64,000 nucleotides of DNA from Lachnospiraceae bacterium. GTDB taxonomy: Bacteria > Bacillota > Clostridia > Lachnospirales > Lachnospiraceae. The translations under genes and the position numbers were made by a program. A model generated the notes under the pieces. It had not been told where the DNA came from, did no database searches, and saw nothing but the letters and a program-made list of their open reading frames with translations. Below, one piece after another: positions 46,141 through 59,899 of this stretch (position 1 is the first letter of the stretch; every line of letters begins with the position of its first letter). The DNA is taken from NCBI GenBank assembly GCA_017624835.1, contig JAGAMG010000044.1, forward strand, positions 62,001-126,000, given 5' to 3'.

Positions 46141-48471
46141 ATGAATCAGCCCAATCAGAAGAAACGGCTGTTGCTGATATCAATTCCCCTGTTATGCATT
46201 CTTGCAGCAGGGGCATTTTTTCAAAGACAGCTACAAATGACTCCCACAGTTGCCGAGCAGGCAGCAGCAGAGGAAATAGAGATATCTCTGGATAGTGGTT
46301 TTTACACACAGAATCAGAGTGTTAAGGTAACTGTGCCGGCAGGGGCAACAGTATATTATACCGACAATTTTGAAGAACCTACTGCAGAAACAGGAAAAGT
46401 ATATAAGGAGCCCATAGCACTTTTGCCAACTGAGACGGAAATGATTTATGGGTATCGTTTTAAGGCATATTATGCAGACGGAAGGGAATCCGAGACAATC
46501 AATCGCACCTATATCTGTGGTACGGAGGTGGATGCTCGGTATACCAATAATGTGCTCTGTGTTTTTGGTGACCCGGACGGATTATTTGGTTACGAAAATG
46601 GTATTTTTGTGCCGGGCAAAATCTTTGATGAGTTTATGGCGGCGAATCCTCAGGCAGTGCTTTATGAGAATGTGGATGCTAATTTTATGCAGCGGGGGGA
46701 CGATACAGAGAGAGAGGTTTATATTGAATATTTTACCCCCCGGGGAAGTAGCCTTATGTCCCAGGAATGTGGGATCCGGGTTTATGGAAATCTGTCCAGA
46801 GTAAAGCATAGAAAATCCTTTCGGTTATATGCCCGAAAGGAATATGATGTACAAAATGAGTTTGATTATCCTGTAATACCTGATTTTGTGTCCGAAGCTG
46901 ACGGCACCGTGGCAAAGGAGCATAAACGCCTGGTGGTACGCAATGCTGGGAATGACAGTGGTGTCACATATTTGCGAAATGAATTGGCACTGCGGCTGGC
47001 AGACGAAGCCGGATTTCAGGATGTAATGTATGCAGAGCCTGTTTGTGTCTATATCAATGGAATTTATTATGGAGTCTATTGGTTGGAAAATGGTTATGAT
47101 GCTCAATATTTCATAAACAAGTATGGAGAGCATGAGGGTGAATTTGTAGTGCTGGAGGGCTCGGATAATCTGAAAAGTGCGGATGAGGATCCGACGGTAC
47201 AGAAATATGTAGAGGAATACAATGCACTATATCAAAAGTTTGGCGCTATGGATTTGACCATTGAAGAAAATTATCAGGCGTTGGCAAAGGTCTTGGATAT
47301 TGAAAATTATTTACAGTATTATGCCATTGAATATTATTTGGGAAATGGGGATTGGCCCCAAAATAATGTAAGGGCGTATCGTTATGTGTCTCCCCATGGG
47401 AATTATCAGGAAGGAACGGTTTTTGACGGACGATATCGTCATATGCTGTATGACTTGGATTATGCCTTTGGCTTGCGTATGGATCCTGAGGAAGAATATC
47501 TGACGGAAATTGTAACCAGTGGCTATCCATTGTTTAAGGCATTAGTGGAGCGGCAGGATTGCAGGGATTATTTTGCAAGCTATGTATGTGATTTGTTTAA
47601 CGGAGCTATGTCCACGGAGCATGTAAAGGAGACCTTGGCAGAAATGCATGCATCCAGAGAGGCGGAACTGCGTTATATGTTTGAGGAAGGAAGTCTGTTG
47701 GAGGATCCTTTATGGTGGGAGCCCACAGCCCAAAGCTACACTGAGTTTGAAGAAAACTATCAGGTGATTGTAGATTATGCCGAGCTGCATCCGGGTACCG
47801 CCTATTCGGATATGACAATGTATTGGGGTTATGATTTTGGGAAATGGTTCTGTCTGAATGTGACTAAGAACGGATTCTCTGATTTGAAGGTAAATACCGT
47901 ATTTGTGGATAAGGATACCTTTATCGGCTGGTACATTGGTGATATTCCGCTGGAATTAACTCCGGTAATGGCAAAGAATGAGGTCTTTGATTATTGGCTG
48001 GTAAACGGAGAAGTCAGAGAAGGGGAAAATTTAACTCTTACCTATGAGGATATTGTAGAAGGACAGATGTATGTGGAAATGGTGGTTCATACAGTGGAGG
48101 AACCGGTTTTGCAGATAAATGCCCTTAAGTCCAAGGGAGCAAGTGATTATATTGAGTTAATCAACTGCTCCGACCAAAATATTAGCACCAGAGGTTACTA
48201 CCTCAGTGACACGGAAGATATTCACAGATACATGCTGCCAACCACTATCATAGGACCTGGTGAAACCAGAAGATTTTATGGTAAGGATTGCATGGATGTG
48301 GAGGCATTGGGACAGAGCGGAATGAATTTTAACATAAAGACGGGAGAAACCATTACCCTGACCTATGGAACGGAAGTATTGGAGTCTGTAGTATTACCGG
48401 ATTTGTCTCAAAACGGAGTTTACAAGTGGAATGACAAGAAACAGAAATTTATTGAAGAGTTTGGACAATAA
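46141..48471 (+). CDS. CotH-type kinase protein with lamin-tail domain (copy 1)
   Basis: A 776-residue exported or membrane-anchored protein. The N-terminal helix is about 9-28. Next comes a chitobiase/FN3-like beta domain (ISLDSGFY...VYYTDNFEEPT), then the CotH kinase-like core (about 200-480). The core contains LVVRNAGNDSG, VYINGIYYGVYWLEN, NGDWPQNNVRAYRY and GRYRHMLYDLDYAFGL, whose Asp pair is the expected metal site. The C-terminal part (about 660-776) has DYIELINCSDQNISTRGYYL, a lamin-tail-like beta domain. By family, CotH proteins are atypical protein kinases. It overlaps the next gene by 41 bp. Confidence 0.85.
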   Translation: MNQPNQKKRLLLISIPLLCILAAGAFFQRQLQMTPTVAEQAAAEEIEISLDSGFYTQNQSVKVTVPAGATVYYTDNFEEPTAETGKVYKEPIALLPTETEMIYGYRFKAYYADGRESETINRTYICGTEVDARYTNNVLCVFGDPDGLFGYENGIFVPGKIFDEFMAANPQAVLYENVDANFMQRGDDTEREVYIEYFTPRGSSLMSQECGIRVYGNLSRVKHRKSFRLYARKEYDVQNEFDYPVIPDFVSEADGTVAKEHKRLVVRNAGNDSGVTYLRNELALRLADEAGFQDVMYAEPVCVYINGIYYGVYWLENGYDAQYFINKYGEHEGEFVVLEGSDNLKSADEDPTVQKYVEEYNALYQKFGAMDLTIEENYQALAKVLDIENYLQYYAIEYYLGNGDWPQNNVRAYRYVSPHGNYQEGTVFDGRYRHMLYDLDYAFGLRMDPEEEYLTEIVTSGYPLFKALVERQDCRDYFASYVCDLFNGAMSTEHVKETLAEMHASREAELRYMFEEGSLLEDPLWWEPTAQSYTEFEENYQVIVDYAELHPGTAYSDMTMYWGYDFGKWFCLNVTKNGFSDLKVNTVFVDKDTFIGWYIGDIPLELTPVMAKNEVFDYWLVNGEVREGENLTLTYEDIVEGQMYVEMVVHTVEEPVLQINALKSKGASDYIELINCSDQNISTRGYYLSDTEDIHRYMLPTTIIGPGETRRFYGKDCMDVEALGQSGMNFNIKTGETITLTYGTEVLESVVLPDLSQNGVYKWNDKKQKFIEEFGQ

Positions 48472-50806
48472 TGCTATAATTTTTCTGCTAATAGGGATAC
48501 CTTTGCTTGGAATTTTGATTGCGGCAGCTTGGGGGTTAAGCCGAAAAGCACCACAGCAGGAGCAGGAGATTGAGAAAATAGAGATATCCTTAGACAGCGG
48601 ATTTTATCAGGAAGACAGGATTCTCAGCGTAAAAGCGCCCATTGGGACTACAGTATATTATTCGGATAACGGAAGTGAACCTGATAGGGATACCGGCAAG
48701 CTTTATGAAGAACCTATAATGGTGGAGGCAGGGGAGGAAATTGCTGTCAAAACCTTTCGGTTTAAAGCCTATGATGAAGAGGGGCATGAGTCAGCAACCA
48801 TAAACAGAACCTTTTTTACCGGTTCCAATGTGGATATCAGATATCACAATAATGTACTTCATATAGCCGGGGATGAAGAAGAACTGTTTGGTTATGAAGA
48901 GGGTATTTTTGTACCCGGGCGTACCTATGATGAATATAAGGAAGCCAATCCGGATGTTTATAATGTGAACGGAGTGGAAGCTAATTTTACCAATCGTGGA
49001 CAGGAGTATGAGCGGGAAGTTTACATGGAATATTTTACCGCGGACGGAGATAGTATTCTTTCTCAGGAATGCGGAGTCAGAATCTACGGTGCCATGACCC
49101 GTATGAAAAATCAGAAATCCTTTCGGTTGTATGCCCGCAGTGAATACGATGTGCAAAATGAGTTTCAATATCCTGTACTGACCCAATTGGTATCTGCTAC
49201 TGATGGTACGGTAGCACAGGAGCATAAACGTCTGATTCTTCGTAACAGCGGAAATGACAATGGTTTTGGATTTATTCGAAGTGAATTGACAGGCAGACTT
49301 GCAGGAGAAGCAGGATTTCCTGATGTAATGCAGGCGGAACCGGTCTGTGTTTATATAAACGGCAGATATTATGGTATCTATTGGCTGGAAAATGGTTTTG
49401 ATGACCAATATTTTATCAACCGTTACGGTGAGCATACCGGGGAATTTGTGGTATTGGAGGGCGGCGATGATAAAAAGCTGTCGGAGGAGGATTCCCATAT
49501 ACAGTCCTATGTGGAGGAATACAATGAACTGTATGACAGGTTTGCGGAGTTGGATTTGACGGATGAGCAGAATTATAAAGCTCTCGAAAAAGTATTGGAT
49601 ATTGAAAATTATTTACAATATTTTGCCATTGAGAATTATGTGGGCAATGTGGACTGGCCCGGAAATAATGTAAGAGTGTATCGTTATGTGTCCCCGGATG
49701 GTGAATATCAGGAGGGGACTGTATTTGACGGACGTTACCGCCATATGCTTTTTGATGTGGATTATGCCTTTGGGCTAATGTTGTATAATGACAGCATTGG
49801 AACCGGTTCAGAGGATTTTACCTTAAGTCGGATTCTTTCCGGGGAAGCTCCCCTTTTCGCCGCATTAATGGAGAGGGAGGATTGTCAGGCATACTTTACG
49901 GGATATACCTTGGACTTAATCAATCATGCCATGTCCTATGAGCATGTGGAAGAAACCTTGGCAGAAATGCATTTATCCCGATATGATGAGCTGTATTATA
50001 TGCTGGAGGAAACCGATTTAATGAAGGATTCCCTATGGGATTGGGAAACCGATGCCAGTATCTATTATGACAATGTGGAATTAAATTATCAGCGTATTTT
50101 GGAATATGCTGAGCTTCATCCGGGAACTGCCATGACGGATATGACCCTTTCCTTTGGTTACGATTTTGCTAACTGGTATATGTTATATGTAACCAAAAGC
50201 GGAATGTCGGATTTGAATATTAACTCCATCTTTTTGGAAGAGGAAAGCTTTGAGGGAATTTACTTTGGAGATGTGCCGGTGGTGTTAACACCGGTAATGG
50301 CAAAGAATGAGGTTTTTGACCATTGGCTGGTAAACGGAGAAATACGAAAGGAAGACGAGTTGACTTTAACTGCTTCTGATATTGTAGAAGGAAGTATTTC
50401 GGTGGAAATGGTTGTACATGATTCGGAGGAGCCTATTTTAGAGCTGAACCGCATTTGTTCCAAGGGACAAAATGATTATATAGAGCTGATTAATCGTTCT
50501 GATAAGCCCATTGAAACAAGGGGCTACTACCTCAGCGACAGCGAGGATGCTTATAGATATCCATTGCCTGCAGCGGTGATTGAGCCGGGAGATACCATAA
50601 AATATTATGGCAGGGATAACATGGATGAAGAAGTGCTTGGCAGAAATGGCATGAATTTTAATCTTAAGGAAGGAGAAACAGTTACGTTCACATATCGGGA
50701 AAAGCAATTGGAAAAGGTAACCATTCCGGATTTACTTTCAAACGGAATTTACCAGAGATATGGAGATACAGGGAAATTTATTGAAATACTGACAGAAGGA
50801 GAATAA
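48431..50806 (+). CDS. CotH-type kinase protein with lamin-tail domain (copy 2)
   Basis: A 791-residue tandem paralogue of copy 1 with the same domain order: basic residues then a membrane helix (about 16-36), FN3-like domain (ISLDSGFY, VYYSDNGSEP), CotH core (LILRNSGNDNG, YINGRYYGIYWLENGF, NVDWPGNNVRVYRY, GRYRHMLFDVDYAFGL), and lamin-tail domain (DYIELINRSDKPIETRGYYL). The ATG at 48431 lies inside copy 1, which gives a 41-bp overlap and supports coupled translation. Catalytic-type residues are kept in both copies, so neither is an obvious pseudokinase. The VTC gene follows after 1 bp. Confidence 0.85.
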   Translation: MTRNRNLLKSLDNNAIIFLLIGIPLLGILIAAAWGLSRKAPQQEQEIEKIEISLDSGFYQEDRILSVKAPIGTTVYYSDNGSEPDRDTGKLYEEPIMVEAGEEIAVKTFRFKAYDEEGHESATINRTFFTGSNVDIRYHNNVLHIAGDEEELFGYEEGIFVPGRTYDEYKEANPDVYNVNGVEANFTNRGQEYEREVYMEYFTADGDSILSQECGVRIYGAMTRMKNQKSFRLYARSEYDVQNEFQYPVLTQLVSATDGTVAQEHKRLILRNSGNDNGFGFIRSELTGRLAGEAGFPDVMQAEPVCVYINGRYYGIYWLENGFDDQYFINRYGEHTGEFVVLEGGDDKKLSEEDSHIQSYVEEYNELYDRFAELDLTDEQNYKALEKVLDIENYLQYFAIENYVGNVDWPGNNVRVYRYVSPDGEYQEGTVFDGRYRHMLFDVDYAFGLMLYNDSIGTGSEDFTLSRILSGEAPLFAALMEREDCQAYFTGYTLDLINHAMSYEHVEETLAEMHLSRYDELYYMLEETDLMKDSLWDWETDASIYYDNVELNYQRILEYAELHPGTAMTDMTLSFGYDFANWYMLYVTKSGMSDLNINSIFLEEESFEGIYFGDVPVVLTPVMAKNEVFDHWLVNGEIRKEDELTLTASDIVEGSISVEMVVHDSEEPILELNRICSKGQNDYIELINRSDKPIETRGYYLSDSEDAYRYPLPAAVIEPGDTIKYYGRDNMDEEVLGRNGMNFNLKEGETVTFTYREKQLEKVTIPDLLSNGIYQRYGDTGKFIEILTEGE

Positions 50807-50807
50807 A

Positions 50808-51491
50808 ATGAGGCATGAATTGAAGTATGTAATATCTCCTGCCCAATATTTCCTGTTAAAGACCCGACTGACTCCCTTTTTAAAAGTGGACAGGTACGCC
50901 GGGGCTGATGGTAATTATTTTATTCGAAGTATCTATTTTGATTCGGATGAATATCGGGCATTGGAGGAAAAGGTCTGTGGTACGGACAGCCGGAGAAAAT
51001 ATCGATTGCGATTTTACAACGGGAATGCAGAGGAATGTAATCTGGAATGTAAAATCAAAAAGGGTACCCGGATTGATAAGACTCAGACGGAGCTTACGTC
51101 ACAGCAGGTACAACAGGTGCTGACAGGCAAAATAGAATTGGGGCAGGAGCTTCCTGATGGCCCGTTAGGAGAATTGGCGGTGCTGCAAAAACGGGAGCAT
51201 TTTCACCCGGTTGTGGTGGTGGATTACCTGCGAGAAGCCTATGTATATCCGGCTTCCAATGTGAGAATTACCTTTGATAAGGAAATTGCCGGAAGCAGGG
51301 TGGAAGGCTGTCTGGAAAAAAAGCGAACCCTTGCCAATATCCTGCCGACGGGATATATGGTGCTGGAAGTAAAATATGACGAATACTTACCGGAGCATAT
51401 CAGCAACCTGATTGCCAGCATAAGACCTGTGCAGACGGCTGCTTCAAAATATGTAATGTGTATCAATGAAAAAATGGAGGGAAAATACTAA
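50808..51491 (+). CDS. VTC-domain polyphosphate polymerase-like protein (copy 1)
   Basis: A 227-residue cytoplasmic protein formed by a VTC domain, the tunnel fold that in yeast Vtc4 makes polyphosphate from ATP. Tunnel-lining basic and acidic residues are in place: HELKY (Lys6), RSIYFD (Arg40), YRLRFYNG (Arg66, Arg68), LECKIKKG (Glu80, Lys82), VRITFDKE (Arg153) and LEVKYDEYLP (Glu187, Lys189). No SPX domain is present. It starts 1 bp after CotH copy 2, and its TAA overlaps the DUF4956 ATG by one base. Polyphosphate synthesis is plausible but unproven for bacterial members. Confidence 0.88.
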   Translation: MRHELKYVISPAQYFLLKTRLTPFLKVDRYAGADGNYFIRSIYFDSDEYRALEEKVCGTDSRRKYRLRFYNGNAEECNLECKIKKGTRIDKTQTELTSQQVQQVLTGKIELGQELPDGPLGELAVLQKREHFHPVVVVDYLREAYVYPASNVRITFDKEIAGSRVEGCLEKKRTLANILPTGYMVLEVKYDEYLPEHISNLIASIRPVQTAASKYVMCINEKMEGKY

Positions 51492-52156
51492 TGAATACAA
51501 TTAAAAACATTTTGGAAGAAAATATTTCACAGATGGGGTTGGTGGAGAACTTATCCCTGCCTTATATCGGATTGGTGCTGGGAACTGCCCTGTTGTGCGG
51601 TTTGATTTTGTACATTGTATACAAATTCTTTTACAGAGGAGCTGTATACTCTGAAAACTATGGCTTGTTGATTGTAATGTCCACCATGACTGTTGCATTT
51701 ATTATCATGACAATTTCATCCAATATCGTACTTTCCTTAGGTATGGTTGGTGCCTTGTCCATCGTTCGTTTCCGTACAGCAGTGAAGGATCCCCTTGATG
51801 TTGGTTTCTTATTTGTAGCAATCGGCGCAGGTTTAACTGCAGGCGCAGGTCTCTTCTTTATTGCAATTATCGGAACGGTAGCAATCAGTTTGGTATTTAT
51901 GGTAATGTTTTTGGTTGGAAAGAGCGCAATGAGCTATCTGTTGATTGTACGCTGTAATGTAGCTGCAGAGGCTGATGTGGCAGATGTAATGTCCACTCTT
52001 AAGAGTAAGCTGAAATCCAAATCCAGTGATGGTATTAGTACTGAATTTACCTATACCGTAAGAATTAAAAAAGAAGATGTAGTAGCAGAAATGCTGGAAA
52101 TCGAGGGTGTGGAAAATGCATTATTGGTTTCCTATACCGGAGATGCACAGTACTAA
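51491..52156 (+). CDS. DUF4956 membrane protein (copy 1)
   Basis: A 221-residue protein with four predicted membrane helices (about 26-48, 58-80, 103-125, 126-145) and a C-terminal cytoplasmic alpha/beta domain of about 75 residues (VRCNVAAEADVADVMSTL...). The family-defining segment LSLGMVGALSIVRFRTAVKD (81-100) lies between helices 2 and 3. The function is unknown to me. Translation is coupled to the VTC gene by a one-base overlap. This copy is the most divergent of the three here. The gene ends before a terminator at 52204. Confidence 0.85.
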   Translation: MNTIKNILEENISQMGLVENLSLPYIGLVLGTALLCGLILYIVYKFFYRGAVYSENYGLLIVMSTMTVAFIIMTISSNIVLSLGMVGALSIVRFRTAVKDPLDVGFLFVAIGAGLTAGAGLFFIAIIGTVAISLVFMVMFLVGKSAMSYLLIVRCNVAAEADVADVMSTLKSKLKSKSSDGISTEFTYTVRIKKEDVVAEMLEIEGVENALLVSYTGDAQY

Positions 52157-52202
52157 GTCCTGATATGCTTTCATAGAAATATAGTTAAAATAGATAATTA
52201 AG

Positions 52203-52244
52203 AAAGCCTCAACGCGAGATATCAAGCTTGCGTTGAGGCTTTTT
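52203..52244. terminator. Terminator between DUF4956 copy 1 and the DUF1846 gene
   Basis: AAGCCTCAACGC (52204-52215) and GCGTTGAGGCTT (52230-52241) are exact complements around a 14-nt loop, with a T-run on the plus strand. It ends the first CotH-VTC-DUF4956 set and could also act on the convergent gene. Confidence 0.85.
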
Positions 52245-52251
52245 AAGCTTT

Positions 52252-53736
52252 TTATTGGTGATACAGTTTCTGGGACTGATAGGTGGGCTCGCAGGTAAGA
52301 TTAATTCCCAGCTTGCGCATTACGTTCATATCTACCTGGGATAAAATTACGCTGGAATGTACCTCGGAACCACGAAGGTTTTGGAGCTGTTTCATGGCAC
52401 GCTTTGCGGTTTCATCCGTAGCAGCACAAATGGAAAGGGCGATCAATACCTCATCCGTATGAAGTCTGGGATTGCGGTTACCCAAATGCTTTACCTTCAA
52501 ATCCTGAATGGGACCAATGGTTGTAGGAGAGATTAGTTGTACACTATCCTCAATTCCTGCCATTGCCTTTAGAGCATTTAACAGCATGGCGGAGGAAGCA
52601 CCCAGAAGAGGGCTTGTCTTACCGGTAATAATGCGACCATCCGGCAATTCAATGGCAGCGGCAGGTTCTCCGGTGGTTTCAGCCTTTACCTTTGCTGCAC
52701 TTATGACAGGTCTGTCATCTATGGAGGTGTCCGCCTGTTTCATTAACAATTCAATTTTTAAAAGCTGTTCATCATCCGCATTTCCCTGACGTTTCTGGCA
52801 GAGGGCATTGTAGTAGCGGCGGATGATTTCCTGCTTGGCAGCAGCTCTGGTTGCTTCATCGTCAATAATACCGAAGCCTACCATATTTACCCCCATATCC
52901 GTAGGGGATTTGTAGATACATTCTCCCATGATTTTTTCAAAGGTTGCACATAAAACAGGGAAAATTTCCACATCACGATTGTAATTGATGGAGGTTTCTC
53001 CGTAGGCCTCTAAATGAAAGGGGTCAATCATATTTACATCATTTAAATCAGCAGTTGCTGCCTCATAAGCAAGATTTACGGGATGCTTTAAGGGCAGATT
53101 CCATACCGGGAAGGTCTCGTATTTGGCATAGCCTGCTTTAATGCCTCGCTTATACTCATGATAGAGCTGGGAGAGACAGGTTGCCATTTTGCCACTGCCG
53201 GGACCCGGTGCTGTAATTACCACCAAAGACCGGGTGGTTTCAATATAATCATTTTTGCCAAAGCCATCATCACTGACTATCATGGGAATATTGGAAGGGT
53301 ATCCGGATATGGTGTAATGCCGGTAAACCTTAAGTCCCAAGGATTCCAATTTCTTTTGATAAGCAATGGCACTGGGCTGGCTGGCAAATCTGGTGAGACA
53401 GATACTTCCCACATATAAGCCGTAGCCTCTGAAGGCGTCAATGAGACGAAGCACGTCAACATCATAGGTAATGCCCAAATCGGAGCGTACTTTGTTTTTT
53501 TCAATATCTTCTGCATTAATGACGATAACGATTTCAGCCTGTTCCTTTAATTGAACCAGCATATTGATTTTACTGTCAGGTTTGAAGCCCGGCAATACTC
53601 TGGAAGCATGATAGTCATCAAATAGCTTGCCACCAAATTCCAAATACAGCTTGCCACCGAAGGTTGAGATTCTTTCCTTGATTTTTTCAGACTGCATTCT
53701 TAAATATTTGTCATTATCAAAGCCTGTCTTTGTCAT
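52252..53736 (-). CDS. DUF1846 domain protein
   Basis: A 494-residue protein recognisable as DUF1846 (PF08903). It starts KTGFDNDKYLRMQSEKI and has FGGKLFDDYHASRVLPGF, an ITAPGPGSGKMATCLSQLYH phosphate-loop-like motif near residue 175, and NYNRDVEIFPVLCATFEKI. It is cytoplasmic, with no signal peptide. The family is common in Clostridia and of uncertain function. It is transcribed opposite to its neighbours, splitting the two CotH-VTC-DUF4956 sets. The upstream region toward ftsH is A/T-rich and shared by the divergent promoters. Confidence 0.88.
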   Translation of the reverse strand: MTKTGFDNDKYLRMQSEKIKERISTFGGKLYLEFGGKLFDDYHASRVLPGFKPDSKINMLVQLKEQAEIVIVINAEDIEKNKVRSDLGITYDVDVLRLIDAFRGYGLYVGSICLTRFASQPSAIAYQKKLESLGLKVYRHYTISGYPSNIPMIVSDDGFGKNDYIETTRSLVVITAPGPGSGKMATCLSQLYHEYKRGIKAGYAKYETFPVWNLPLKHPVNLAYEAATADLNDVNMIDPFHLEAYGETSINYNRDVEIFPVLCATFEKIMGECIYKSPTDMGVNMVGFGIIDDEATRAAAKQEIIRRYYNALCQKRQGNADDEQLLKIELLMKQADTSIDDRPVISAAKVKAETTGEPAAAIELPDGRIITGKTSPLLGASSAMLLNALKAMAGIEDSVQLISPTTIGPIQDLKVKHLGNRNPRLHTDEVLIALSICAATDETAKRAMKQLQNLRGSEVHSSVILSQVDMNVMRKLGINLTCEPTYQSQKLYHQ

Positions 53737-53868
53737 TTTGTCGCCCCTTTCCTAAAACTTCAACAATTGATAACATACACCTTAGTATCATACAAAAAAA
53801 AGGATGCGAAATCAATGGAAAATTTAGAAATCTTTTAGACTTAACACCATTTTTTCACGTTTGCGCTA

Positions 53869-53897
53869 TTGATTTATCACATTATTATCTCTATAAT
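53869..53897 (+). promoter_or_regulatory. Promoter of ftsH
   Basis: TTGATT (53869-53874), a 17-bp spacer, then a perfect TATAAT (53892-53897), 38 bp before the ftsH start. This fits a sigma-A promoter. Confidence 0.6.
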
Positions 53898-53934
53898 AAA
53901 ATAGACTTGGTCAAAAAGTATTGAAGGAGCTACT

Positions 53935-56154
53935 ATGGATAATCAAATGAATCAATATAATAATGGAGACCGTAATAATGGCGGTCATAACAACGGGAAC
54001 CGTGGTAACGGAGGAAATGGACAGCCTCCCAAGAAACCGGGGATTATTATGCTGGTTATGGCAGGACTAAGTACGGTTCTGTTGATATTTATGCTGTGGA
54101 ATATGGTGTTTGGCAGTGCGGACAATGCCAGTGAAGTAAGCTATAGCCAGTTTGTGGAATATATAGAGGCGGGTGTGGTTGATAAAGTAGAAATCCAGAA
54201 TACCGGCAGGGTATTATTTACTTTGAAGCCCCAGAAAGCTACAGAAACGGATGAGAGAACTCAGACACTTCAGCAGCTGTATCCTTTTCTGGCAAGCTAT
54301 CAGCCTACCTATTATGCTATTATGATAGAAAGTTCCGACACCCTGACAGCACGTTTGCTGGAAGTGGGTATAGATGCCAAAGGTAAGCTGGAAGATAACA
54401 GCATGATGGACTTTATTCTGTATTCCATCCTGCCCATTATACTGATGGTAGTGTTAATGAGTCTGCTGTTTCGTAAAATTGGTGGCAGCGGTGGTCCCAT
54501 GGGTGTGGGAAAGAGTAATGCCAAGGTATATGTACAGAAGGAAACAGGAGTTACCTTTAAGGATGTAGCAGGTGAGGATGAGGCAAAGGAATCCCTTCAG
54601 GAGGTAGTTGATTTCCTGCACAATCCCGGTAAATATTCCAAGATTGGTGCAAAGCTGCCCAAGGGGGCGCTTTTAGTAGGACCTCCCGGAACCGGTAAAA
54701 CCTTACTTGCAAAAGCAGTGGCAGGTGAGGCACATGTGCCCTTTTTCTCCTTGACAGGCTCCGACTTTGTGGAGATGTTCGTAGGTGTGGGTGCAAGCCG
54801 TGTAAGAGATTTGTTTAAGGAAGCAACCAAGAATGCCCCCTGTATTATTTTTATAGACGAGATTGATGCCATCGGACGTAGCCGTGATTCCAAATACGGC
54901 GGTGGCAATGAGGAAAGAGAGCAGACCTTAAATCAGCTGCTTTCCGAAATGGATGGTTTTGACAGCTCCAAGGGTATTCTGATTTTGGCAGCTACCAACC
55001 GTCCCGAGATTCTGGATAAGGCATTGCTTCGTCCGGGACGTTTTGACAGACGTATTATTGTAGATAAGCCCGACTTAAAAGGACGTGTGGAAATCCTCAA
55101 GGTACACTCCAAGGATGTGAAGATGGATGAAACTGTGGATTTGGATGCCGTTGCATTGGCAACCAGCGGTGCTGTGGGCTCCGACCTTGCCAATATGATT
55201 AACGAGGCTGCCATCAATGCAGTTAAGGAAGGACGTCAGTTTGTAAATCAGCACGATTTGTTCAATGCAGTGGAGCAGGTGCTGGTAGGCAAGGAAAAAA
55301 AAGACCGTATCATGAGTAAGGAGGAAAGAAGAATTGTTTCCTATCATGAGGTTGGTCATGCGTTAATCAGTGCTTTGCAGAAAAACTCTGAGCCTGTGCA
55401 GAAGATTACCATTGTACCCCGTACCATGGGTGCATTAGGTTATGTTATGCATGTGCCGGAGGAGGAGAAATATCTGAATACGGAAGCTGAGCTTCGTGAT
55501 ATGCTGGTAAGTCTGGTGGGCGGACGTGCTGCGGAGGAGATTGTATTTGAAACTGTTACCACAGGTGCCGCTAATGATATTGAGAAGGCAACTAATATTG
55601 CCCGTTCCATGGTGACCCGTTACGGTATGAGCAAGCGCTTTGGACTGGCAGGCTTTGCTACTGTGGAAAGTCAGTATCTGGAGGGTAGAACTGCTCTGAA
55701 CTGTAGTGATAAGACCGCCGCTGAAATTGATGATGAGGTAGTGGTAATCTTAAAAGACAGCTATGAGAAAGCATTATCCCTGCTGAAAGAAAACCGCGAG
55801 ATTATGGATAAGCTGGCAGATTTCCTGATTGAGAAGGAAACCATTATCGGTAAAGAGTTTATGGAAATCTTCCGTAAAGAAAAAGGCATTGAAGAGCCTG
55901 TGAAGGAAGAAAAAACTGTGGATGAAGCAGCTAAGGAAGAAAGTGCAAAGGAAGAAACTGAAAAGGATGCAGTTACAGAATCGGCAGTAAATGGAACGGA
56001 AGCAGAGGCAGCAGGTGCAACCATTGACATTGTAATTGATGATGAAACGAGAACCTCGGATACTGCAATGCCGGAAGAAAAGGCACCGGAAGAAACAAAG
56101 CAGGAAGAGGACAATCGTCAAAGAGGACTTTTCTCCAATGGGACGATTGATTAA
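53935..56154 (+). CDS. ftsH: ATP-dependent zinc metalloprotease FtsH
   Basis: A 739-residue membrane AAA+ protease that degrades misfolded and regulatory membrane and cytoplasmic proteins. An Asn/Gly-rich N-terminal tail (1-35) precedes helix 1 (about 37-58), an external domain, helix 2 (about 158-178), the AAA domain with Walker A GPPGTGKT (249-256) and [11 protein letters not shown], and the zinc site HEVGH (471-475). The C-terminal 95 residues are a Glu/Lys/Ala-rich disordered tail, longer than usual. GAAGGAG lies upstream of the ATG. It is followed after 26 bp by DUF4956 copy 2 with no terminator, so ftsH and the second CotH set may share a transcript. Confidence 0.96.
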
Positions 56155-56180
56155 CAAATGGCTGGTGATGAGGAGGACAA

Positions 56181-56849
56181 ATGAGTTTGTTGACAGAGCT
56201 TAAGAATGCTATATTTGGAGGGGTGGATCCTTCTAATTTAAATACCACAACAATAGCAGTTGCCATTATTGCTGCAGCAGTTTTGGGATTTTATATTTAT
56301 CTGGTATACCGTCTGGTTTCCAGAAAAGCCTTTTATTCCAAGAACTTTAATATTTCTCTTGTAGCTTTGGCTATGATTGTTGCGGCAATTATTTTAACCA
56401 TTCAGTCCAGCGTAGTAATTTCATTAGGAATGGTGGGAGCATTATCCATTGTACGTTTCAGAACTGCCATAAAGGATCCCATGGATTTGGTATTTTTATT
56501 TTGGTCCATTTCAGTGGGAATTATATGTGGCTCCTGTTTTTTCAAGATTGCCATTGTGCTTTCCGTATTGTTAACAATTGTAATCATAGGCTTGGAATTA
56601 TTACCAAGTGTGCAGGCACCCATGCTGTTGCTGGTGGATGCCGGAAGCTGTAGTGTGGAAAAAGAAGTAAAGGAAATTGTAAAGAAGTATTCCCGTTTCC
56701 ATCAGGTAAAATCAAGAAATCTTACCACAGATGGAATGGATATGGTGATTGAGCTTCGTATAAAGGGTGATGGCGAGGCTTTGATTCAGGAAATCAATAC
56801 AATGGAGGGAATACGTTCTGTTTCCTTATTGGCTCACGATGGAGAATAA
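56181..56849 (+). CDS. DUF4956 membrane protein (copy 2)
   Basis: A 222-residue protein with helices at about 23-45, 58-80, 103-122 and 124-142, and a C-terminal soluble domain ending VSLLAHDGE. The signature VISLGMVGALSIVRFRTAIK is at 79-98. It is much closer to copy 3 than to copy 1 (both have KKAFYS or RKAFYS, FNISLVAL, and KSRNLT in the tail). AGGAGGA precedes the ATG. It lies 26 bp after ftsH and 8 bp before CotH copy 3. Confidence 0.86.
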   Translation: MSLLTELKNAIFGGVDPSNLNTTTIAVAIIAAAVLGFYIYLVYRLVSRKAFYSKNFNISLVALAMIVAAIILTIQSSVVISLGMVGALSIVRFRTAIKDPMDLVFLFWSISVGIICGSCFFKIAIVLSVLLTIVIIGLELLPSVQAPMLLLVDAGSCSVEKEVKEIVKKYSRFHQVKSRNLTTDGMDMVIELRIKGDGEALIQEINTMEGIRSVSLLAHDGE

Positions 56850-56857
56850 GCATAGGC

Positions 56858-58534
56858 ATGAGGCGGAAATTTGCATTTGTATTATGGTTGGTCAGTGCGC
56901 TGATAATTGGCAGCTTTTTTGTCGGTGAGGCAGTGTCAGCCAGACTTCCAATAGAATATACCGCAAAGATTATGGGGATTCCCATTGTTGAAAATTCGGA
57001 TTTTCTGCGAGAAAAGCAGAAAGGGATATTAAAGGAAAGACCTGAAATATATTTTGATGATATATTGCTTCCTTATTCCGAGAGTAATCATACATTGTAT
57101 GTTTCTCAAAGCGTTGAACAGGAAAAATGGCTTGGAAAACTATCCGTGAAAGAAAATAATACATTTATCTGTGCACCTTGGGATGATTATTGGCAGCAAA
57201 AAGAAGCTGCCATTAGAGAAGGACATAGCTTTACAATGTGGCTGGTAACGGAAGAAGAATATTATGAGTTGTCTCTGGTAGTTTCAGGGATGCCCATAAT
57301 CAGTATAGACACGGAATTTTCCCAGGAGCAGAATTACGATGATGCGGACAGTGATACGGAATATTTCGGACCGGAGGTATTATCTTATGGAAAGCTTAGG
57401 CTGTTCAATCCGGGAGTTGGAACGGTTGCTTATGAAGCAATAGAATGTAATGTGGAGTATCATGAAAAAGGCTCCTCCACCTCTAATTTCGATAAGCTTC
57501 CCTATGCCATTGATTTGAAAGATGCAAAGTGGGAAAATTTGAATTTGCCTCTACTGGGAATGCGTCAGGATGACAGTTGGAAATTAAATGCCATGGTTAT
57601 GGATGAAAGTCGCATCAGAGAAAAGACGGCAGCTCAGATTTGGGAAAATTTTGACCGGGCAAGCGCTGTAAAGGAAGCCGGTGCCAAAATGGAATATGTA
57701 GAGCTGATTTTGGATAATGATTATCAGGGGTTATATTGTCTGGTAGAGCCTGTGGATGCCAAAAAGCTTGACTTAGATTATAATGATGTATTATATAAGA
57801 TTGTAACATGGGCAATTCCCGAGGATTCCTATATGCAGGCAGCGATGGACGATGGTTCCCATTTTATGCAGTCCATTCGGCTTCGTTATCCTAAACCGGC
57901 AGAGGATTACTATCAGGCATGGTATCCCATGAGAGATTATTTGAATCTTTTCTATCGGGAAGAAGGCGGCAGAACGGATGCTGTTAGCAGATTGAATTGG
58001 GAAAATGCTTTGGACATCCTGTTTTTCAACATGGTGGTCAGTGGAAGTGATAATTATTTCAAAAATATGTATCTGGTAGCAGATGTGGATGCACAGGGAA
58101 ATTATCAGATGCTTCACATTCCCTGGGATTTGGATTTGACCTTTGGAATTGTGTATGCCGATGATGGCGTGAACAATGTGAAATTTGACAAGGATTATAC
58201 CTATAATTATGCCATGGAATGGTTCCCGGTATTGCTGGAGCATCACAGGGACAGTATTACGGAAACCATGCCGGATAAATGGAGACAGTATAGAGAGGAC
58301 TTTTTAAAGACAGAAGCTATTCAGCAGATTTTTAGGGAAAATTACACCTATTTAATGAGTACCGGAGCTGTAGAACGGGAAAATGCCCGTTGGGAGTATT
58401 ATCAGGTAAATACCAATTTGGAAGAACTGTTGGATTTTCAAGCCAAGAGAATGGAATGGCTGGATAACTATTTTACAGAAAAGTATGAGGAAAAATGGAC
58501 ATTAGAAACAATACCAAATACCGCAATGAGATAA
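56858..58534 (+). CDS. CotH-type kinase protein (copy 3)
   Basis: A 558-residue exported protein. An N-terminal hydrophobic segment (FAFVLWLVSALIIGSFFVG, about 4-23) may be a signal peptide or anchor. A beta-rich region follows, then the CotH core (about 200-480) with YVELILDNDYQGLYCLVEPV, GSDNYFKNMYLVAD and IPWDLDLTFGIVY, whose Asp pair is the predicted metal site. It lacks the lamin-tail domain of copies 1 and 2 and is distant from them in sequence, so it is not a simple duplicate. It overlaps the VTC gene by 40 bp. Confidence 0.87.
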   Translation: MRRKFAFVLWLVSALIIGSFFVGEAVSARLPIEYTAKIMGIPIVENSDFLREKQKGILKERPEIYFDDILLPYSESNHTLYVSQSVEQEKWLGKLSVKENNTFICAPWDDYWQQKEAAIREGHSFTMWLVTEEEYYELSLVVSGMPIISIDTEFSQEQNYDDADSDTEYFGPEVLSYGKLRLFNPGVGTVAYEAIECNVEYHEKGSSTSNFDKLPYAIDLKDAKWENLNLPLLGMRQDDSWKLNAMVMDESRIREKTAAQIWENFDRASAVKEAGAKMEYVELILDNDYQGLYCLVEPVDAKKLDLDYNDVLYKIVTWAIPEDSYMQAAMDDGSHFMQSIRLRYPKPAEDYYQAWYPMRDYLNLFYREEGGRTDAVSRLNWENALDILFFNMVVSGSDNYFKNMYLVADVDAQGNYQMLHIPWDLDLTFGIVYADDGVNNVKFDKDYTYNYAMEWFPVLLEHHRDSITETMPDKWRQYREDFLKTEAIQQIFRENYTYLMSTGAVERENARWEYYQVNTNLEELLDFQAKRMEWLDNYFTEKYEEKWTLETIPNTAMR

Positions 58535-59193
58535 AATATATCTGTAGCGAGCAACAGCTACAGCTGATAGAACACCGTATTTCTAAATTGTGTAAAAAAG
58601 ATACACATGCAGGTGCAGACGGCACATATACTGTACGAAGTCTCTATTTTGATGATTATCATAATAGCTGTATGAAGGAAAATGAAAGCGGAGTTAATGC
58701 CAGAGAAAAATTCCGTATTCGAATCTATAATGGCAATACGGAACGCATTACATTGGAGTGTAAACAGAAGCTGAACGGAAAGAATCACAAGGAGTCCTGT
58801 GCATTGACAAAGGAACAATGTCAGGAGATTTTACAGGGAGTCTGTAAAATGCCGGAAAATCCGTCACCGCTTTTTCGGAAATTTTATTTGCAGTATCATA
58901 CCCGGGTTTTGCGTCCCAAAGTAATCGTACAGTATGACAGAACCCCCTTTGTATATAAGGCCGGTAATGTGAGAATTACCTGTGACAGAAATATTTCCGG
59001 AACTGAAAACGTAAAGCTCTTTTTAGAAAAGGAGATTCCTGTCAGACCGGTAATGGAAAAGGATTCCCACGTTCTTGAAGTAAAATATGATGAGTTTTTA
59101 CCGGATTTTGTGAAGAGCACAGTACAGATAAAAAATCTGAACCAGACTGCTTTTTCCAAATATTACATGTGTCGTAAATTTAAATTAAGTTAA
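58495..59193 (+). CDS. VTC-domain polyphosphate polymerase-like protein (copy 2)
   Basis: A 232-residue VTC domain. The tunnel residues match copy 1: NEIKY (Lys14), RSLYFDD (Arg48), FRIRIYNG (Arg74, Arg76), LECKQKLNG (Glu88, Lys90), VRITCDRN (Arg160), LEVKYDEFLP (Glu195, Lys197) and SKYYMC (Lys222). GAGGAAAA lies just before the ATG, which sits inside CotH copy 3 (40-bp overlap). No SPX domain or membrane helix is present. It precedes DUF4956 copy 3 by 28 bp. Confidence 0.88.
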   Translation: MDIRNNTKYRNEIKYICSEQQLQLIEHRISKLCKKDTHAGADGTYTVRSLYFDDYHNSCMKENESGVNAREKFRIRIYNGNTERITLECKQKLNGKNHKESCALTKEQCQEILQGVCKMPENPSPLFRKFYLQYHTRVLRPKVIVQYDRTPFVYKAGNVRITCDRNISGTENVKLFLEKEIPVRPVMEKDSHVLEVKYDEFLPDFVKSTVQIKNLNQTAFSKYYMCRKFKLS

Positions 59194-59221
59194 AGAAAAT
59201 TAAATTTAGAGGAGAGAGAAA

Positions 59222-59899
59222 ATGAGTTTTTCAGATGTACTTAAGAAATCTTTTTTGCAAGGTGTCAATGCGAATGAATTGACTATGGGCTCTATTGCCG
59301 GTGTTATTTGTGTGGCAGGCTTGATTGGTCTTTATATTTTTGCGGTATACTATCTGACCGGAAAGAAGGCGTTTTATTCCAGAAGCTTTAATATTTCTTT
59401 GGTTGCCTTGACCATGATTACTGCAGGCATTATTTTGACTATTCAGACAAGTGTGGTAATCTCCCTTGGTATGGTTGGTGCATTATCCATTGTGCGTTTC
59501 CGTACAGCAGTAAAGGATCCCATGGATTTGATTTATTTACTGTGGTCTATTTCGGTAGGTATTATTTGCGGTGCGGGCTTAATAAAGGTGGCAGTGGTAG
59601 TATCCCTGTTGGTAACAGTTGCAATTATGGTATTGGAATTGCTTCCTGTATTGCATACACCCATGATTTTGATTGTGAATGCCCAGTCCGACAATATTGA
59701 TGACAAATTGAAGGATATTATCAGTGGTTATTCTAAGAATTACAAGGTAAAATCCCGTAACCTTACCCAAAGTGGTCTGGATTTGATAATTGAGTTAAAG
59801 GTAAAGGATGACGGAGCAGACCTTGTTAGAAGGATTAAGGAAATAGAAGGAGTTTATGCAGTATCTCTGGTATTGCATGATGGTGAGGCTGCGTACTAA
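59222..59899 (+). CDS. DUF4956 membrane protein (copy 3)
   Basis: A 225-residue protein with four predicted helices (about 23-45, 58-80, 103-122, 122-142) and a soluble C-terminal domain (VNAQSDNIDDKLKDIISGY...). The signature VISLGMVGALSIVRFRTAVK is at 79-98. GAGGAGAGAG precedes the ATG. With copy 2 it flanks the CotH-VTC pair, so two related but distinct DUF4956 subunits could assemble together. It is followed 12 bp later by uvrC. Confidence 0.86.
   Translation: MSFSDVLKKSFLQGVNANELTMGSIAGVICVAGLIGLYIFAVYYLTGKKAFYSRSFNISLVALTMITAGIILTIQTSVVISLGMVGALSIVRFRTAVKDPMDLIYLLWSISVGIICGAGLIKVAVVVSLLVTVAIMVLELLPVLHTPMILIVNAQSDNIDDKLKDIISGYSKNYKVKSRNLTQSGLDLIIELKVKDDGADLVRRIKEIEGVYAVSLVLHDGEAAY

Follow-up and report, generated by a model that had tools for sequence, protein, structure and literature searches.

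Do the CotH-type kinases, VTC-type polyphosphate polymerases and DUF4956 membrane proteins that are crowded into one clostridial locus form a unit of their own, and what could such a unit do? The locus lies in a 64,000-nucleotide stretch of DNA (the window) from a Lachnospiraceae bacterium (contig JAGAMG010000044.1, 62,001-126,000), and all positions given here are those of the window. It holds three CotH, two VTC and three DUF4956 genes, all eight of which score above the Pfam cut-offs, arranged as set A (CotH1-CotH2-VTC1-DUF4956-1, 46141-52156) and set B (DUF4956-2-CotH3-VTC2-DUF4956-3, 56181-59899). Comparison across genomes shows that VTC and DUF4956, usually together with a partner that is probably outside the cell, are a real, conserved and portable module with published ties to the cell surface. 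The genes of the two sets are the following.

46141..48471, + strand: CotH1, 776 amino acids, with a hydrophobic segment at residues 10-28, CHB_HEX_C_1 and a CotH kinase domain at 212-550
48431..50806, + strand: CotH2, 791 amino acids, with the architecture of CotH1, to which it is 60% identical
50808..51491, + strand: VTC1, 227 amino acids, with a VTC-type polyphosphate polymerase as its sole domain and no hydrophobic segment
51491..52156, + strand: DUF4956-1, 221 amino acids, with an MgtC-like membrane domain and a C-terminal NapD/ACT-like region
56181..56849, + strand: DUF4956-2, 222 amino acids, nearest relative DUF4956-3
56858..58534, + strand: CotH3, 558 amino acids, a short form without lamin-tail match, with a hydrophobic segment at residues 5-23
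58495..59193, + strand: VTC2, 232 amino acids, with a VTC domain
59222..59899, + strand: DUF4956-3, 225 amino acids, with a weak direct Pfam match to MgtC

An open reading frame check and Pfam bore out the eight genes, coordinates, overlaps and gaps of the original prediction, which had been made from the letters of the window. In set A, CotH1 and CotH2 overlap by 41 bp, a single bp separates CotH2 from VTC1, and VTC1 and DUF4956-1 overlap by 1 bp; in set B, DUF4956-2 is followed after 8 bp by CotH3, which overlaps VTC2 by 40 bp, and a gap of 28 bp precedes DUF4956-3. The lamin-tail match of CotH1 is below cut-off. The description of two sets within 14 kb was correct as to gene content, but left unmentioned the DUF1846 (- strand) and FtsH (+ strand) genes that lie between them.

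The linkage of the three families was assessed in 101 genomes sampled evenly from the whole phylum, the window genome included. VTC was found in 11 of the 101 genomes and DUF4956 in exactly those 11 and in 0 of the 90 others (Fisher p 6e-15, in a test that assumes independent genomes, which genomes are not), and CotH occurred in 9 of the 11 VTC genomes versus 1 of the 90 others. DUF4956 adjoins VTC on one contig for 16 of the 17 VTC matches, and the 17th pair, in genome G062, is split over two contig ends. The 12 loci of this sample (L101-L112, with L110 and L111 as the halves of the split pair) carry CotH in seven cases and Cthe_2159, a carbohydrate-binding protein, in three. A larger sample consisted of the best 80 of 587 confirmed DUF4956 matches found by two DUF4956 motif patterns, and these loci were annotated with profiles built in this analysis. 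VTC was present in 79 of the 80, in 78 as the immediate same-strand neighbour with a median gap of 23 bp; at the 80th locus, L090, the contig ends soon past DUF4956. Within two genes, the partner was CotH at 59 loci, Cthe_2159 at 9 and neither at 12. The commonest gene order was VTC-DUF4956-CotH (25 loci), followed by CotH-VTC-DUF4956 (17), VTC-DUF4956 (12), CotH-DUF4956-VTC (8), VTC-DUF4956-Cthe_2159 (8) and others (10). Linkage of the trio is far above chance, and the conserved adjacency of the three families on which the original prediction relied is upheld by the 79 of 80 loci and by the identical genome sets of VTC and DUF4956. No open reading frame matched both the VTC and the DUF4956 profile, and a fusion of the two was accordingly rejected.

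VTC and DUF4956 sequences from 95 loci were joined end to end for a tree, built with a quick method that left 25 of 92 inner branches open. On this tree the Cthe_2159 partner label changes at least seven times, with four changes forced by starred branches, so that exchange between CotH and Cthe_2159 as partner looks recurrent. Among 14 control genomes, Corynebacterium glutamicum and Methanosarcina acetivorans match all three families, Bacteroides ihuae matches VTC and DUF4956, and Bacillus subtilis matches CotH alone. In Nonomuraea (Actinomycetota) the order is VTC-DUF4956-CotH. On a contig titled Muribaculum sp. (L027) a VTC-DUF4956 pair was found that is 63% identical to that of L014, a locus of the window genome, and this contig is possibly mis-binned.

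The same genes are known from another setting, which leads to the question whether the module depends on the exopolysaccharide Pel. The genes cotH-PPP-DUF4956(-DUF4832) have been described as accessory genes of Gram-positive pel clusters (PMC7112168; PMC12345266), with Pel-linked copies of the trio in streptococci, clostridia and bifidobacteria (PMC7112168). There, as in the window, the three families are contiguous, and they have been recognised as an MgtC/ACT protein, a polyphosphate polymerase and a secreted CotH; in the window, however, the trio occurs twice and apart from any pel locus. A row in the Clostridium perfringens locus NELoc-2 reads VTC-'tubulin'-resolvase-VTC-'tubulin'-CotH and is not described as a module in the available part of its source (PMC2879425). 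Like the window, it brings together two VTC proteins, two small membrane proteins and CotH, and its 'tubulin' proteins are probably DUF4956, judging from size and place. The locus had originally been called undescribed, a label that does not hold, since the trio appears in PMC7112168 and PMC12345266 and a similar row in PMC2879425. According to the available part of PMC12345266, its authors did not find synteny of the trio outside Pel loci, a negative that may concern a narrower genome set. Among the open-licence papers retrieved and consulted, none was seen to test the mechanism or to treat the trio as independent of Pel. What is new here is the Pel independence, the shared distribution of VTC and DUF4956, Cthe_2159 as an alternative partner, the two adjacent lineages, and the residue and profile tests.

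In the window genome the module is not contiguous with pelDEADAFG, and the scanned neighbours are housekeeping genes. The genome's own pel locus lies on another contig (L149, C30:18000-37000; the window is on C39), on which CotH, VTC and DUF4956 gave no match. This locus encodes PelG, a PelF-like glycosyltransferase, an epimerase-domain protein, two DUF4832 proteins and further glycosyltransferases. PelF and PelG were searched with one-seed profiles, by which distant copies may be missed; PelG was detected in 3 of the 101 genomes (one below cut-off), only the window genome among these having VTC, and it was not found in 10 of the 11 VTC genomes, nor was it matched in the C. glutamicum control genome. 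No pel gene was seen near any of the 12 even-sample loci. In the larger sample, pel genes lie within six genes at 16 of the 80 loci, all 16 with CotH; at 42 loci the whole trio is present and no pel gene was found in that range, although many flanks are short. Where six genes are available on both sides (33 loci), pel is present at 9 and not at 24, and 18 of these 24 carry the trio.

Two plasmids carry the module in other surroundings. On the Pseudobutyrivibrio plasmid pNP95 (L152), CotH-VTC-DUF4956 lies inside a cluster of glycosyltransferase, acyltransferase and pyruvyltransferase genes. On a Planococcus plasmid (L153:5202-12597) the row is VTC-DUF4956-CotH followed by a 689-amino-acid protein, a HEAT protein and a glycosyltransferase with likeness to chitin synthase; it resembles the NELoc-2 row (PMC2879425) and represents a second exopolysaccharide-type context besides Pel.

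The enzyme at the core of the module was compared with yeast Vtc4. VTC1 and VTC2 score 137.4 and 134.9 bits against Pfam PF09359, with a cut-off of 23. An alignment of 92 of the 95 complete VTC proteins (A6; L030, L069 and L095 are out) has among its positions invariant in all 92 rows R2, E4, K6, K64, R66, R68, E80, K82, K91, R142, R153, E187, K189, S213 and K214. VTC1 retains K6, R66, R68, K82, K91, R142, R153, E187, S213 and K214, which in the alignment with 8i6v_E correspond to yeast Vtc4 K200, R264, R266, K281, K294, R361, R373, E426, S457 and K458 and which we take to be the key residues of the tunnel. When the 92-row profile was compared with solved structures, Vtc4 came first with an E value of 2.5e-17, and the ten listed matches up to E 1 were all VTC subunits. 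In hydrolytic relatives, three glutamates (E4, E6 and E162 of ygiF) hold a second, water-activating metal, a site that Vtc4 lacks (PMC4641920). Two of the three corresponding positions are basic in all 92 rows (R2 and K189, in a register deduced by us) and the third keeps its glutamate, a pattern that makes a hydrolase less likely than a polymerase or transferase without settling it. The module thus resembles the yeast VTC complex (Vtc1/3/4) in having a tunnel domain with the Vtc4 residues and in pairing the enzyme with a membrane protein. It differs in that the VTC proteins of the window match the VTC domain only, without SPX match, and in that the module lacks DUF202, which supplies the membrane part of yeast VTC; its membrane partner is a separate MgtC-like gene.

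This membrane partner, DUF4956, has three to five hydrophobic segments in 98 of 98 proteins according to hydropathy, and its C-terminal region has a weak likeness to NapD. The motif GMVGALSIVRxR is present in all rows of an alignment of 81 of the 98 proteins (A5; those left out include L030 and L090), and L015 departs from it; because the loci were found by motif patterns, the invariance is partly by construction. The original prediction proposed a channel or scaffold, which for DUF4956 would be a putative role; the MgtC/SapB proteins, its distant kin, are known mainly as regulators. In a profile comparison by hhalign, DUF4956 and MgtC/SapB matched with 95.9-97.2% over about 190 columns that include the membrane domain and the C-terminal region, and all controls (PelG, histidine kinase, response regulator, PelF, VTC, CotH and DUF202) stayed below 1%. 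The MgtC alignment entered the final comparison with 27 of 30 rows; L121, L133, L135 and L143 look like wrong open reading frames, and L133 was retained. Direct matches are far weaker, with E values of 5e-6, 8e-4 and 5e-3 for the three window copies against the NCBIfam MgtC/SapB model (best 26.3 bits, cut-off 214), a Pfam MgtC match for DUF4956-3 alone (17.5 bits, cut-off 31.4), and, in an MgtC scan of 61 genomes, one DUF4956 gene (G024) matched below cut-off with E 8e-4. By its profile DUF4956 is a distant relative of MgtC/SapB and, by cut-off, no member; it differs further in being tied to VTC at 79 of 80 loci. The Streptococcus intermedius homologue has already been labelled MgtC plus ACT (PMC12345266), and our profile test is independent of that label. 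Two expression papers that name DUF4956 say nothing on its function in their available parts (PMC10434189, PMC6848847).

The third part, CotH, matches the solved spore-coat kinase 5jd9 with an E value of 6e-46. The catalytic aspartate pair (D398 and D424 in CotH3) is kept in all three window copies and in 26 of 26 rows of an alignment drawn from 84 CotH matches (A7, mostly the shorter ones). By spacing, the pair would correspond to D228 and D251 of B. subtilis CotH, where D228Q and D251A variants are inactive (PMC7821199). CotH3 has a glycine two residues before the first aspartate, where most rows have asparagine. Kinase domain and aspartate pair are thus shared with the spore-coat enzyme, from which the window proteins differ by an N-terminal hydrophobic segment and additional Fn3-like domains. 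Spore-coat genes were not seen among the scanned neighbours. A stalk cluster of Zetaproteobacteria that includes a CotH protein (PMC8250860) was considered and kept as a loose analogy only.

Topology was derived from hydropathy and not from a signal-peptide predictor. An N-terminal hydrophobic segment is present in 69 of 78 complete CotH and in 8 of 11 Cthe_2159 proteins. Among the VTC proteins, 94 of 95 have no hydrophobic segment at all, and none of the 95 has one in the first 70 residues. Kinase and polymerase would therefore probably be on opposite sides of the membrane, with VTC soluble, which supports the membrane DUF4956 and the extracytoplasmic CotH originally proposed. The intact VTC tunnel residues (92 of 92 rows) and the intact CotH aspartate pairs in all three copies, claimed there as well, survived proper alignment.

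The window genome (84.8% complete) contains 9 CotH, 6 VTC and 7 DUF4956 matches. DUF4956 is directly beside all six VTC genes, and CotH is directly beside three of the six pairs, namely those of set A, set B and L014, where it is divergent. At L017 two genes lie between CotH and the pair; Cthe_2159 stands beside the pairs of L015 and L017, and L016 has neither partner. The similarity matrices of the six VTC and six DUF4956 copies correlate with r 0.92, a value reached in 4 of 720 permutations. Divergence in step fits a physical pairing of VTC with DUF4956, and a shared transfer history could also explain it. Some further genes were noted at these loci. At L014:12521-15695 a tandem pair of genes lies between two CotH genes; Pfam identifies the first of the pair as a PMT_2-type glycosyltransferase, which the second resembles at its start. 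A methyl-accepting/PilZ fusion protein is directly beside DUF4956 at L017:6689-8842; PilZ domains often bind c-di-GMP, as in the control of exopolysaccharides. L018, L019 and L020 carry CotH genes without VTC or DUF4956 in the fetched stretches, of which L018 reaches a contig end.

The original prediction described the window as a duplicated locus, which is misleading. VTC1 and VTC2 are 38% identical, CotH1 and CotH3 share about 19% when roughly aligned over their full length, and the two sets occupy different parts of the tree, by which a recent duplication of one locus was rejected. Set A clusters with clostridial loci, L021 and L014 among them, in a part of 31 rows, into which all 16 Pel-linked rows fall. 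Set B groups with L016 and L017 of its own genome (support 100), and its part of 42 rows has CotH and Cthe_2159 partners and zero Pel-linked rows. The local duplicates are CotH1/CotH2 in set A and, as the closest pair among the DUF4956 copies, DUF4956-2/DUF4956-3 in set B. By tree and identity, the window holds two different module lineages side by side.

How might such a module work? The best explanation, held tentatively and falling somewhat short of an even chance, is a module that stands by itself at the cell surface, with VTC producing polyphosphate at DUF4956 and an outside partner using it. It rests on gene content, linkage, residues and hydropathy; product, coupling, direction and target are our reading of these. 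Its core, established by linkage, is a VTC-type enzyme that is soluble and the MgtC-like DUF4956 of the membrane, which co-occur and co-diverge. At most, not all, loci they are joined by a partner that has a signal or membrane segment; this is usually the CotH kinase and elsewhere Cthe_2159. At the inner face, VTC would turn ATP into polyphosphate or a phosphoanhydride akin to it, and DUF4956 would bind or gate this enzyme or its product. The outside partner may then use the product, or the state that it signals, to modify surface proteins or exopolysaccharide, by which cell-cell sticking would be altered. A more specific version is decidedly unlikely. In it, VTC and DUF4956 would be what bacteria have in place of the VTC complex, and would pass polyphosphate made inside through the membrane, either as phosphate donor for an outside CotH, which otherwise has no ATP, or to form a calcium-polyphosphate matrix that Cthe_2159 proteins hold. 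Mutants of S. intermedius support a surface role: in artificial sputum medium, strains without the DUF4956 homologue SIR_1592 or the CotH homologue SIR_1594 lost more than half of their aggregation, and Pel was raised by loss of DUF4956 and lowered by loss of CotH (PMC12345266).

Several observations speak against polyphosphate made for an outside partner. In the available part of the same study, no loss of aggregation is reported for deletion of SIR_1593, the VTC homologue, and each of the three single mutants still produced Pel (PMC12345266); these results argue against a simple chain with VTC polyphosphate as an indispensable link, and the opposite Pel effects are not explained by one linear pathway. 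As to linkage, 12 of the 80 loci have no CotH or Cthe_2159 within two genes (for 3 of them a nearby contig end is flagged), CotH occurs without VTC in genome G072 and in the B. subtilis control, and the choice of the best 80 loci by motif patterns makes that sample lean to close relatives. A Hymenobacter (Bacteroidota) plasmid has DUF4956 preceded by a gene without recognised VTC; it was rejected as a Bacteroidota VTC pair, the 359-amino-acid protein before DUF4956 being without Pfam match. DUF202 is present in 4 of the 101 genomes, two of which are VTC genomes with DUF202 on other contigs, and DUF4956 showed no profile similarity that would make it a DUF202 homologue (four DUF202-search rows, one probably another frame). 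In the VTC proteins, E4 of the acidic patch is kept in all 92 rows, where yeast Vtc4 has Thr198. PPK1 has one match in the window genome and is enriched in VTC genomes, the window genome included (6 of 11 versus 11 of 90). VTC is therefore no simple substitute for PPK1, and the idea of a stand-in for a missing PPK1 was rejected.

The main rival is a regulatory unit, which we regard as possible, if on the unlikely side. Here DUF4956 would be a membrane regulator of the MgtC type whose ACT-like domain senses the status of phosphate, Mg or ATP; VTC would serve it locally as a sink or sensor for phosphate or ATP, and CotH would report or act outside. Nothing would be transported, and exopolysaccharide output would be tuned. 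The hhalign result, the shift of Pel in opposite directions on loss of DUF4956 and CotH (PMC12345266) and the promotion of phosphate uptake by Salmonella MgtC (PMC6658541) agree with this, as do two-component systems within four genes at 10 of 80 and 5 of 12 even-sample loci and a purple-acid-type phosphatase within three genes at 2 of 80 and 1 of 12. On the other hand, most loci have no two-component system, the neighbouring response regulators of L107 and L080 pass no cut-off among the 25 models shown, PhoB included, and the likeness to MgtC is distant, with every NCBIfam match far below cut-off.

That VTC is another kind of tunnel enzyme, a triphosphatase, cyclase or transferase on some other substrate in a module unrelated to polyphosphate, is unlikely. 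The conserved Glu4 recalls hydrolytic relatives (PMC4641920), PPK1 is present in 6 of 11 VTC genomes, and the deletion of the VTC homologue had no effect reported in the available text (PMC12345266), but the first rank of Vtc4 among solved structures, the VTC subunits that make up all ten listed matches up to E 1, the matching K458, E426 and basic tunnel residues, and the Arg and Lys at two of three site-2 glutamates speak against it. Finally, the trio could be a dedicated Pel accessory whose copies outside Pel loci act in trans. The Pel-linked copies of streptococci, clostridia and bifidobacteria (PMC7112168), the 16 loci near pel and the pel locus elsewhere in the window genome would agree, yet 10 of 11 VTC genomes are without PelG match, 0 of 12 even-sample loci are near pel, the trio stands without pel within six genes at 42 of 80 loci (18 of the 33 with full flanks), and the Pel-linked rows are confined to one part of the tree; this explanation is highly improbable.

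Around and between the two sets, the following features were recorded.

52201..52244, + strand: terminator-like stem of 18 pairs with a T tail, 3' of set A, from a consensus scan only, which is no proof of a terminator
52252..53736, - strand: DUF1846 protein, between the sets and not counted as part of the module
53935..56154, + strand: FtsH/M41 protease, between the sets, 26 bp 5' of set B

Among the other loci searched, a DUF1846 protein is near the module at L100 alone. With 26 bp from ftsH and 12 bp from the end of set B to the start of uvrC, set B may share a transcript with housekeeping genes. The other scanned neighbours are a TrmB-like methyltransferase, a D-Ala-D-Ala carboxypeptidase, an exonuclease, an esterase-like protein, UvrC, HPr kinase and a ROK kinase, and no conserved link of the module to FtsH, UvrC or TrmB was found in the other loci searched. 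In Salmonella, FtsH degrades MgtC together with the peptide MgtR, and ftsH directly upstream of the MgtC-like DUF4956-2 is a suggestive pairing, yet it occurs in no other locus searched. A role in anti-phage defence was rejected, as PADLOC matches none of the eight proteins.

The trio is thus no longer seen only through Pel but as a defined, portable unit. It poses the questions what a bacterial VTC protein makes alongside PPK1 and what feeds kinases outside the cell, and the exchange of CotH for Cthe_2159 provides a natural comparison.

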